64,000 nt of DNA from assembly GCF_000378305.1 (NCBI RefSeq), contig NZ_KB899538.1, positions 1,086,001 through 1,150,000 of the forward strand, written 5' to 3'. Below are positions 2,050-4,730 of this stretch, in pieces (within the stretch, counting starts at the first letter, position 1; every line of letters begins with the position of its first letter). This DNA is from Thioalkalivibrio sp. ALJ12. Lineage in GTDB: Bacteria; Pseudomonadota; Gammaproteobacteria; Ectothiorhodospirales; Ectothiorhodospiraceae. The notes beneath the pieces were generated by a model. The model saw only the letters and a program-made list of their open reading frames with translations. It was not told the origin of the DNA and did no database searches. Both the position numbers and the translations under genes were made by a program.

Positions 2050-2417
2050 CGCGCCCATCTTGAGTAGCAGAGGTCTGTCAATGGACTGTTGTCGATGGAT
2101 GCATGAGCGTCGGGCCGGTAGCCGGTACGAGCATGCATATCGTTGCCAGCGGGGTCCCGCCACCCGGTAGTGCGGTGGTGTCCCCCGGTGTCAGCGATAT
2201 GCGTGACTCCGGGGGGTGGCAGAAAGCCTTTCCCCTTGCGCCCCTCGCGGGTGCCCCCCCAGCCCCTCAGCCCGTATTGCGCCCGCCCTTGCGCGTGGCG
2301 CGCTGCCCCATGCCATTCGATGATATTCCGCCTCTGCCCGGATTCCGGGCCGATGCGCACGTTGCCGTGCGCGTAACGGATTGGACTGTATCCATGAATA
2401 ACCAGCAGGAGGCCGCC

Positions 2418-2522
2418 ATGCCAGCGCCTGAAGACGACGACCCCGGGTCTAGACCCGGAACATCACTGCGGGGCAGTGAGAAAAGTAAAAGTGTGTTCGT
2501 CTCGCTGATGGGGGTTTTGTAA
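2418..2522 (+). CDS. Putative mgtE leader peptide (acidic/proline-rich, MgtL-like)
   Basis: A 34-codon ORF with a perfect AGGAGG Shine-Dalgarno at 2407-2412, 5 nt before the ATG, the best ribosome binding site in this region. The peptide begins M-P-A-P-E-D-D-D-P-G, turns basic (Arg12, Arg18, Lys22, Lys24) and ends at TAA 2520-2522, 88 nt before mgtE. In E. coli the MgtL leader peptide (M-E-P-D-P-T-P-L-P...) destabilises the translating ribosome at low Mg2+ through its acidic and proline residues and so switches on mgtA. Proline and Asp/Glu runs at the very N-terminus, followed by basic residues, upstream of a Mg2+ transporter fit the same logic. An in-frame upstream ATG (2394) would add eight residues but has a weaker site. 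Function is inferred. Confidence 0.5.
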   Translation: MPAPEDDDPGSRPGTSLRGSEKSKSVFVSLMGVL

Positions 2523-2591
2523 GAGACCGCCACCAGCGGTCACGGGATTCTTTTGTCTTTTGTAATGCCCCGCGTGCGTTTTTTATTTTTT
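2463..2591 (+). promoter_or_regulatory. Possible attenuator: alternative pairings ahead of a U-tract
   Basis: GCGGGGCA at 2468-2475 is an exact reverse complement of TGCCCCGC at 2566-2573. The second arm lies 5 nt before TTTTTT-A-TTTTTT (2579-2591), so this pairing could terminate transcription. The first arm is also part of the local hairpin 2463-2479, which would exclude the long-range pairing. The hairpin lies within the leader ORF, so translation could decide which structure forms. The 8-bp pairing over about 90 nt is modest; this is a hypothesis. Confidence 0.35.
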
Positions 2592-2610
2592 AAGCACAAG
2601 GAGCATTGCA

Positions 2611-3996
2611 ATGAACGACAAGATTCTGGAAATGATTCATGCCGGTGACGTGGGTGCTGCCCGCGACGAGGTGATCCATCCGGTCCCGGCCATTACCGCC
2701 AACCGCCTGTCCGAGCTGGACCCGCGTTCGCGCTGGGTGATCCTGGAGGGCGTGGATACCAACGAACGTCGCGCCATCTTCCTGGCGATGGATGACGAAG
2801 AGCAGGCGATCCTGTTCGAGCACATGCCCGAGCCGGAGGCCCGCGAGCTGGTCCAGAGCCTGCCGGCCTACACCCTGGCGCGGTCTCTGACGCTGGTGGG
2901 CAAGTCCCTGGCGGACGAACTCCTGGATGCCCTCCCCGGGGCCAAGCGCGACAAGGTGCGCGCCCTGTGGCGTCAGGACGAGGACACCGTGGCTCGTGTG
3001 ATGCGTCGCCCGGTGTTCTGGGTGACCCCGGAAGAGACCGTCAGCGAGGTCACCGCCCGCCTGCGCGACGATCGCAATATGCCGGACGATGTCGGGGCCG
3101 CACTGCTGATTACCGATCGCGACCACCACTACAAGGGGCTGGTGCGCCTGGGCCGGATGTTCCGCGCGGAGTCCGGCCAGACGGTTGGGGATCTGATCGA
3201 ACTGGAGGACTTCTGCACCACGCCCGACGGCGACAAGGTCGAGGCCGCCCGCCTGCTGCAGCGCACGGATCTGCCGTATCTGCCGGTGGTGGATGCCGAC
3301 GGCGTGCTGGTGGGGGTGCTGCGCATCGACGACGCGATGGACGTGCTCGAGGAAGACACCTCGGAGGACTTCTACAAGAAGGCCGGGATCGGCGACCTGC
3401 TGCACCAGAAGGATGTCGTGCGCTCGGAGAAGCTGACCTCCGGCGGGATCGGCTATGCGGTCAAGGTGCGCATGGCCTTCCTGATGGTGACGCTGGCGGG
3501 TGGTCTGGCCGTAGGCGGGGTGATCGACTTCTTCGAGGACACCCTGGCGGCGGTGGTCGCGCTGGCCATCTTCATCCCGCTGGTGATGGACATGGGCGGC
3601 AACGTTGGCACGCAGTCGACCACGATCTTCGCCCGCGGGCTCGCCCTGGGGCATATCAACCTGGGCCGCTTCTTCCGCGCGCATCTGGTCCGAGAGGGGG
3701 GCGTAGGCCTGGCCATGGGGGTTGTGATGGCCGTCATCGCCGGTACCATCGCCCACTTCTGGCAGGGTGCGCCGAACGGCATCCCGGAGCTGGGCATCGT
3801 GGTTGGCGTGGCACTGTTTGTCTCGGTGTTTACCGCGTCGATCCTGGGCTTCCTGCTTCCGTGGGTACTGCTGAAGATCGGTGTGGACCATGCGCCAGGC
3901 GCGGACCCGTTCATCACGACCATCAAGGATTTCACCGGGCTGGCCGTGTACTTCGGCATGGCCGCCTGGCTGCTGAGTGCGCACATGCCGGCCTGA
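2611..3996 (+). CDS. mgtE: Mg2+ channel/transporter MgtE
   Basis: 461 residues, the usual MgtE length. The N-terminal superhelical domain (about 1-130) and paired CBS domains (about 135-260) are the cytosolic Mg2+ sensors that close the pore when Mg2+ is plentiful. The C-terminal five-helix membrane domain (about 285-460) carries the pore motif GGNVGTQ near residue 330 and the conserved DPFITTIKDFTGL segment near 431, whose Asp binds Mg2+ in the pore in Thermus MgtE. The ATG follows AAGGAG at 2598-2603 with 7 nt spacing. The gene sits behind a long leader with a candidate Mg2+-responsive peptide, so expression is probably controlled after initiation. A porin gene follows 83 bp downstream, separated by a strong hairpin. 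Confidence 0.95.
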   Translation: MNDKILEMIHAGDVGAARDEVIHPVPAITANRLSELDPRSRWVILEGVDTNERRAIFLAMDDEEQAILFEHMPEPEARELVQSLPAYTLARSLTLVGKSLADELLDALPGAKRDKVRALWRQDEDTVARVMRRPVFWVTPEETVSEVTARLRDDRNMPDDVGAALLITDRDHHYKGLVRLGRMFRAESGQTVGDLIELEDFCTTPDGDKVEAARLLQRTDLPYLPVVDADGVLVGVLRIDDAMDVLEEDTSEDFYKKAGIGDLLHQKDVVRSEKLTSGGIGYAVKVRMAFLMVTLAGGLAVGGVIDFFEDTLAAVVALAIFIPLVMDMGGNVGTQSTTIFARGLALGHINLGRFFRAHLVREGGVGLAMGVVMAVIAGTIAHFWQGAPNGIPELGIVVGVALFVSVFTASILGFLLPWVLLKIGVDHAPGADPFITTIKDFTGLAVYFGMAAWLLSAHMPA

Positions 3997-4079: not shown

Positions 4080-4730
4080 ATGAACCATCGAAACTTCCAT
4101 CGCGGCGTGCTGGCCGCAGCCAGTGTATTCGCCTTCGGCATCTCGGCGGCCCAGGCCGCCGAGGCCGAATTCAACATCGGCGTGTTCACCGACTACATCG
4201 ACGACGGTGCCTCCAAGTCCGACAACGACCCGGTGGTGCAGGGCGGCTTCGAGCTGGGCTTCCCCACCGGCGTGTTCACCGGTGTGCAGGCCTCCAGCCT
4301 GGGCAGTGGCCGTGGCACCGAGATCGTCCCGTTCGTCGGCTATGGCTTCGACGCTGGCCCGATCGGCATCGAATTCGGTTACGAGTACTCCCATTACTCC
4401 AGCCTGGATGACGAAGACGAGGGTGAGCTGTTCCTGGGCGCCGATTGGGGGCCGCTGTTCGCCGAGGTGGCGTATGTCGCGCACGCCGACGATCGCGATG
4501 CCGAGGGCAGCCGCGTCTGGTTCGTCGGGGCCGGGCACGAGGTGGCCCCGCGTACCGAGCTCTTCGGCGGGCTCGGCTATGACGATCCGGCCGATGACAA
4601 CGGCGCGAAGTTCTGGGAACTGGGCGCGGCGCACGCGACCGACTTCGGCACCTTCTCGCTCACCTACGCCTCGCGCGACGAGAGCGGTGCTCAGGACCTC
4701 TTCGTGGCCGGCTACACTCTGAGCTTCTGA
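4080..4730 (+). CDS. TorF-family putative outer-membrane porin
   Basis: 216 residues. An N-terminal signal peptide (basic start, hydrophobic core, AQA-AEA cleavage near residue 23-26) is followed by alternating amphipathic strands and a C-terminal Phe, as in outer-membrane beta-barrels. The early pattern FTDYxxDGASxSDNDPxxQGGFE matches the TorF/TIGR02001 putative porin family, which has a similar N-terminal strand with a QGG motif. It is strongly acidic between strands. The start follows AGAGGA at 4067-4072. It lies just after mgtE and before a strong terminator, so it may be co-transcribed with the Mg2+ channel. The substrate is unknown. Confidence 0.6.
   Translation: MNHRNFHRGVLAAASVFAFGISAAQAAEAEFNIGVFTDYIDDGASKSDNDPVVQGGFELGFPTGVFTGVQASSLGSGRGTEIVPFVGYGFDAGPIGIEFGYEYSHYSSLDDEDEGELFLGADWGPLFAEVAYVAHADDRDAEGSRVWFVGAGHEVAPRTELFGGLGYDDPADDNGAKFWELGAAHATDFGTFSLTYASRDESGAQDLFVAGYTLSF

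Follow-up and report, generated by a model that had tools for sequence, protein, structure and literature searches.

The leader of the Mg2+ transporter gene mgtE of Thioalkalivibrio sp. ALJ12 contains a short open reading frame, uORF2, that begins with a cluster of proline and acidic codons and probably gates the translation of mgtE: sequence comparisons point to a switch in which low Mg2+ would cause ribosomes to drop off within uORF2, so that an RNA rod (rod 2) could form and mgtE would be turned on. More tentatively, at slightly less than an even chance, the leader as a whole may represent a ribosome-gated Mg2+ sensor that applies the logic of MgtL convergently to an unrelated transporter and is arranged in tandem with a similarly built Cys-Cys-Arg leader peptide (uORF1) that would read another signal. 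The DNA analyzed here, termed the window, comprises 64,000 nucleotides, and a sequence-only reading of it had proposed an MgtL-like peptide ahead of mgtE. The comparison of related leaders supports this interpretation, which is extended here by a second conserved uORF and by two competing predicted folds at the mgtE ribosome binding site (RBS). The elements concerned are the following.

2021-2049, + strand: promoter-like sequence TTGCGA-17-TACAAT, from a consensus scan only; similar in several relatives
2081-2170, + strand: uORF1, Cys-Cys-Arg leader peptide of 29 residues, MDCCRWMHERRAGSRYEHAYRCQRGPATR (MDCCRWMHERR...), present in 9 of 9 close Thioalkalivibrio leaders
2129-2209, + strand: rod 1, arms 2129-2154 and 2183-2209, apical hairpin loop with the uORF1 stop codon (2168-2170); RNAalifold consensus of nine leaders
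2230-2309, + strand: C-rich, G-poor tract between the uORFs (42 C and 21 G in 80 nt), putative Rho loading site
2407-2412, + strand: Shine-Dalgarno (SD) sequence AGGAGG of uORF2, with 5 nt from its end to the ATG; GGAGG in 18 of 18 leaders
2418-2522, + strand: uORF2, predicted acidic/proline leader peptide of 34 codons, assigned by position and by codon-level selection in relatives
2421-2444, + strand: putative ribosome-destabilising codons 2-9, PAPEDDDP, resembling EPDP of MgtL; this N-terminus is kept as peptide, the remainder is not
2464-2576, + strand: rod 2 (predicted; minimum free energy fold of 18 of 18 leaders), arms 2464-2518, within uORF2, and 2523-2576, with the uORF2 stop codon in the apical loop
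2468-2475 with 2566-2573, + strand: predicted pairing at the base of rod 2, GCGGGGCA with UGCCCCGC
2560-2611, + strand: predicted stem burying the mgtE SD, 2560-2577 with 2594-2611; 97.8% of cells paired in nine leaders
2599-2603, + strand: SD sequence AGGAG of mgtE, from the sequence
2611-3996, + strand: mgtE, Mg2+ transporter of 461 residues (Pfam MgtE, CBS and MgtE_N; PDB match)

The downstream gene had been taken for mgtE in the sequence-only reading, and this assignment was confirmed by the three Pfam domains and by the top PDB match of its product, MgtE 2yvx (6.3e-52, residues 6-457). The protein shares 94-98% identity with those of five Thioalkalivibrio strains (L040-L044). Equally, the ORF at 2418-2522, noted for its strong SD and its MPAPEDDDP start, was found as described, with AGGAGG placed 5 nt before the ATG; its translation is MPAPEDDDPGSRPGTSLRGSEKSKSVFVSLMGVL, with the N-terminus MPAPEDDDPGSRPG (MPAPEDDDPGS...). 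Among 81 SD-preceded starts on both strands of the 64-kb window (SD of at least 5 nt placed 3-12 nt upstream, nine open codons), uORF2 was the only one whose residues 2-9 include at least five Asp, Glu or Pro and among these at least three acidic ones. Another in-frame ATG, at 2394, was rejected as its start because it has no SD and is absent in L005 and L006, leaving 2418 as the likely start. A leader of about 555 nt, as noted earlier, agrees with the promoter-like sequence at 2021-2049, a start predicted by consensus scan only. The region from 2060 to 2620 is more stably folded than shuffled versions of itself (z = -5.16, reached by 0 of 100).

For comparison, we assembled 18 leaders, namely the window, eight close Thioalkalivibrio leaders and nine divergent orthologs, originating from Thioalkalivibrio, Ectothiorhodospira, Halorhodospira and one metagenome-assembled genome from another family, all with untruncated mgtE starts. 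The named loci L040-L053 mostly represent organisms already in this set and were counted once, with L052 added. All 18 leaders carry uORF2 as an SD followed by 29-41 codons with an acidic/proline start, down to about 59% MgtE identity, and its place relative to mgtE is kept as well (start at -177 to -207, end at -75 to -105). The close relatives begin with MPAPEDDDP, MPAPENDDP, MPAPDDDDP or MPAPVDDDP, and L009 with MPQDDDDP, while the nine divergent N-termini read MPDDPGP, MPDDPEP or MPDEPEP. Four divergent leaders (L033, L034, L036 and L052) use a TTG start. The uORF2 of L004 and that of L007 each have one acidic residue fewer, and a 1-nt deletion past the acidic run in L007 and L008 alters the C-terminus and leaves the N-terminus intact; the C-terminal part diverges freely among leaders. 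The sequence-only reading had suggested looking for a conserved short ORF and ribosome binding site in related mgtE leaders and had named lack of conservation as the outcome that would speak against it. Since all 18 leaders retain the SD, the position and the acidic/proline N-terminus, this objection falls.

The association of uORF2 with mgtE was equally tight. At E ≤ 1e-80, the family yields 16 ortholog matches, of which 15 have uORF2; the exception, L038, has a truncated mgtE. The L038 gene is a degenerate copy in which a small upstream protein is fused in frame to the mgtE remnant and uORF2 is lost; the mgtE of G024 ends at a contig edge. A search for the pattern SD-NTG-Pro-Asp-Asp/Glu-Pro-x-Pro in 47 family genomes gave seven matches, all seven upstream of mgtE, and the backward control gave zero. 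The Thioalkalivibrio form of the pattern, which G013 escapes through an Asn codon, yielded eight matches in 30 genus genomes, again all at the mgtE leader. No match was obtained in 369 genomes of the class, where the carrier G125/L039 escapes the pattern by its SD spacing of 12, nor with a loosened pattern in 398 genomes of the phylum, a draw that overlaps in part with the former. Among 80 named MgtE loci, the motif was flagged by script in 13 of the 14 closest (L040-L053) and recognized by hand in L051, which the script had missed because it took the start of the upstream gene. The 66 more distant loci, four of which (L069, L085, L092 and L105) offered less than 120 nt of upstream DNA, gave one weak flag (L067). 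Convergent invention of the sensing logic, which the sequence-only reading had called independent, would fit this narrow distribution.

Codon comparisons indicate that uORF2 is under selection at the peptide level in its first codons only. In codons 2-7 of eight divergent leaders, synonymous and nonsynonymous differences stand at 53:31 in frame versus 0:84 and 14:74 in the other frames, and the nonsynonymous changes are Asp/Glu and Glu/Gly exchanges. First and second positions change only at codon 6 (Glu/Gly) and at the start (ATG/TTG), and most third positions vary. This third-position pattern shows that the first residues of uORF2 are conserved as protein and the remainder is not; codons 14-28 of the same leaders gave a ratio of 38:354. 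The signal within eight close leaders is weak (12:20 in frame versus 5:25 and 0:32) because their DNA is too similar.

The second half of uORF2 pairs with the RNA between its stop codon and mgtE, forming rod 2 in the minimum free energy structure of 18 of 18 leaders when the first uORF2 codons are held open and the transcript is ended before the mgtE SD. Energies relative to dinucleotide shuffles ranged from z = -1.45 to -6.43. The number of pairs across the uORF2 stop stood out less in six divergent leaders: L012, L052, L033, L037, L035 and L124, where 54, 25, 19, 13, 12 and 10 of 200 shuffles, respectively, attained it. When the nine divergent leaders were aligned together, RNAalifold returned small hairpins only, and folds were therefore computed per leader and per subgroup. 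In the alignment of the nine close leaders (A3), 96.8% of the cells of rod 2 are paired versus 49-57% in slid controls. Covariation on A3, tested on a structure derived from those same sequences, was mixed: three pairs show two-sided change (reached by 24 of 500 shuffles), the covariation score was reached by 4 and further pair types by 321 of 500, the counts for all five measures being 1, 24, 4, 321 and 4. Four subgroups, the last of which overlaps the A3 set, gave 2, 3, 0 and 2 compensatory pairs and 8, 0, 0 and 6 broken pairs (8/40 and 6/40 in the two affected subgroups), with L012/L124 having no compensatory pair.

The stem predicted to bury the mgtE SD shares the stretch 2566-2576 with rod 2, so the two predicted folds are mutually exclusive. 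Its segment reaches z values of -1.2 to -5.6, and the 97.8% of paired cells in nine leaders compare with 23-50% in slid controls; in these leaders we found no two-sided change and no covariation beyond shuffles (393/500). Predicted stems covering the mgtE RBS recur in other genera. Locking rod 2 exposes the mgtE RBS more than ribosome transit does in 16 of 18 leaders, L035 and L124 behaving in the opposite way. In unforced folds, the ribosome-free RBS exceeds its openness in transit by at least 0.04 in seven of 18 leaders, differs by no more than 0.03 in ten, the window included, and is less open in L124; the switch would therefore need a co-transcriptional folding order. The unforced minimum free energy structures of L001 and L008 have the uORF2 SD itself paired. 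In Thioalkalivibrio, GCGGGGCA...UGCCCCGC followed by a U-run was also considered as an intrinsic terminator and rejected: the divergent leaders have no U-run after the equivalent helix, and the U-run is thus taken to form the loop of the RBS stem.

From these elements, the most probable course of regulation can be drawn. Ribosomes recruited to uORF2 by its strong SD would encounter the proline and Asp/Glu codons before the tenth residue, while hardly any peptide fills the exit tunnel. At low Mg2+, many of them would drop off early, through the intrinsic ribosome destabilisation described for MgtL; this would leave the second half of uORF2 free of ribosomes to pair with the RNA ahead of mgtE, and rod 2 would thereby take the 5' arm of the SD-burying stem, permitting translation of mgtE. 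At high Mg2+, ribosomes would arrive at the uORF2 stop codon, rod 2 would not form, and the SD-burying stem would shut mgtE off. Mg2+ is the presumed signal because of the identity of the transporter and the analogies to MgtL and mgtQ. For haloalkaliphiles, to which the named carriers belong, little free Mg2+ is expected to be available. If the proposed regulation holds true, Mg2+ sensing by the stability of the translating ribosome would be a general logic with more than one origin and no fixed link to P-type Mg2+ ATPases, and the leader would supply acidic codons, fold and transporter as separately mutable parts.

Instead of gating the RBS, the same sensor could terminate transcription through Rho, a mode reported for Salmonella mgtA; we judge this alternative unlikely but weigh it seriously. 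It draws on the C-rich, G-poor tract between the uORFs, which recurs in 9 of 9 close leaders with best windows of C 36-43 and G 16-23. As far as the available text goes, MgtL is described as Rho-acting (PMC11282234), yet Rho termination is reported as undetected for E. coli mgtA. The tract lies upstream of uORF2, however, and uORF2 translation would thus not obviously cover or expose it; the recurrence of stems over the mgtE RBS across genera likewise argues for RBS gating.

The peptide itself might instead sense proline by stalling, whether through charged tRNA-Pro, EF-P or osmotic stress, in the manner of Salmonella mgtP. The named hosts are halophiles, and prolines are conserved at residues 2, 5 and 7 (9 of 9 divergent leaders) or 2, 4 and 9 (8 of 9 close ones), both of which count in favor of this idea. 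We nevertheless hold it to be quite improbable: Asp/Glu is conserved about as well as Pro, and PP occurs in the uORF2 of only five of 18 leaders (L012, L033, L034, L036 and L124), the window not being among them. According to the accessible parts of PMC3641672, mgtP answers proline limitation ahead of mgtC and does so with three consecutive Pro codons, whereas the uORF2 of the window has no consecutive Pro codons.

A metal- or metabolite-binding riboswitch, with uORF2 merely incidental, would account for the highly structured leader (z = -5.16) and the almost invariant stem of rod 1. It would also be in line with Narunsky et al. (2024, PMC11109978), whose accessible text lists an mgtE motif, SRC-65-1, as a strong riboswitch candidate that has no ligand; its 32 representatives all come from Thioalkalivibrio. 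Selection on the peptide over codons 2-7 makes this explanation very improbable, as does the observation that, beyond the first codons, the RNA can barely be aligned across genera, while the peptide start and the rod topology persist. Furthermore, the leader gave no Rfam match at the gathering score; at E ≤ 10, three matches appeared (E 2.2-9.3), all far under the family cut-offs. The impression of the sequence-only reading that no M-box pattern is present was borne out, the Rfam covariance model of the M-box (ykoK) riboswitch being absent from the window and from 12 related loci.

Judged by its text description, SRC-65-1 resembles the present leader in its occurrence in Thioalkalivibrio, its position upstream of an mgtE and a large imperfect stem whose foot holds the SD and AUG. 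It differs in that it is classed as a riboswitch, with no uORF named in that description, and in being confined to Thioalkalivibrio, the range of uORF2 extending to further genera. The description fits two leaders alike, and SRC-65-1 may correspond either to the uORF2 leader or to that of a tandem mgtE paralog, the latter being conserved and structured, too. The tandem pair consists of divergent mgtE paralogs (about 30% identity) at G000 C3:51595-54215 (L002 and L003). The leader of the first paralog is conserved over about 240 nt and structured, with L002, L022, L024, L027 and L028 alike and L015 not. The top-scoring uORFs of the own mgtE paralogs (L002, L003) and of corA (L135) included no SD-preceded acidic/proline uORF. 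If the published motif is the uORF2 leader, what was listed as a candidate riboswitch would in fact be a switch operated by a leader peptide. Finally, a chance origin of uORF2 in conserved RNA, for which the weak codon signal within the close group (12:20 versus 5:25 and 0:32) could be cited, is contradicted by the third-position pattern across genera and the tie to mgtE and can be practically dismissed.

Upstream of uORF2, uORF1 repeats a similar architecture. The second half of uORF1 takes part in rod 1, as the second half of uORF2 does in rod 2. The long stem of rod 1 is near-invariant and shows little covariation, and the apical hairpin is partly broken in L009. Over 27 aligned codons, uORF1 of the window and of L009 have 14 identical, two synonymous and 11 different codons, so that the frame is kept. 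Similar uORFs of the MD..CCR type were seen in L033, L034/L053 and L039/L051, and MDSSCRC in L052; the counterparts in relatives begin with MMGCCCRY, MDSDCCRN, MDSSCCRC, MDSDSSCCRT and MDSSCRCS. The signal read by uORF1 is perhaps the supply of cysteine.

Regarding known systems, one of the closest in design is the leader of mgtA in E. coli and Salmonella. Like MgtL, uORF2 is a short, SD-preceded ORF leading a Mg2+ transporter gene (18 of 18 leaders) and its acidic and proline residues fall within the first ~10 codons, where the peptide is under selection. The two exclusive folds of the mgtA leader may have a counterpart in the predicted rod 2 and SD-burying stem. uORF2 is about twice as long as MgtL. 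Unlike MgtL, it precedes mgtE and not the P-type ATPase gene mgtA, the proposed output is an RBS stem, and the lineage is distant. In the available text of PMC11282234, the EPDP of MgtL is described as a ribosome drop-off site favored by low Mg2+. The eight-codon mgtQ of Salmonella mgtB also has acidic codons, and PMC8092293, as far as accessible, reports that these raise mgtB translation through alternative stems that free the mgtB RBS when translation is impeded in low-Mg2+ medium. With 29-41 codons, uORF2 is longer than mgtQ and belongs to another transporter family and other species. A further likeness to mgtQ is the intergenic position of uORF2 in L012, L035, L037 and L039, owing to a small MgtE_N-like gene that lies upstream. 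This gene was noticed in L049 (2389-2751, upstream of uORF2; 22.2 bits, under the cut-off of 25.9) and, by eye, also in L012, L035, L037 and L039/L051. Two tandem uORFs in one Mg2+-related leader are likewise known from the mgtM/mgtP attenuators of Salmonella mgtCBR, for which the accessible part of PMC3641672 gives ATP and proline as signals, whereas uORF1 is Cys-rich. The corL-corA leader also has a uORF inversely tied to a Mg2+ transporter, but the N-terminus of corL is reported to have a single Pro and the transporter is another one. The mycobacterial M-box, which controls a uORF, is of a different design, judging from the available text of PMC12810186. In the open-licence literature on mgtE leaders and MgtL-type destabilization, as far as its text was accessible, we found no report of an acidic/proline leader peptide of mgtE.

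Other elements were noticed around these genes. A second acidic/proline uORF with a TTG start, MPEDPGPAEPPSS, was spotted by eye in L033 at about -593 from mgtE. Mn2+ riboswitches (RF00080) occur near mgtE at L049 925-1095, L050 151-310, L039 3647-3815 and L051 5585-5753, and those of L049 and L051 precede a gene that by eye resembles the UPF0016/GDT1 Mn2+ exporter. In the window, mgtE is directly followed by a Gcw_chp family gene (4080-4730) with a sub-threshold porin match, and secreted-looking proteins were seen by eye after mgtE in L049 and L051, too.
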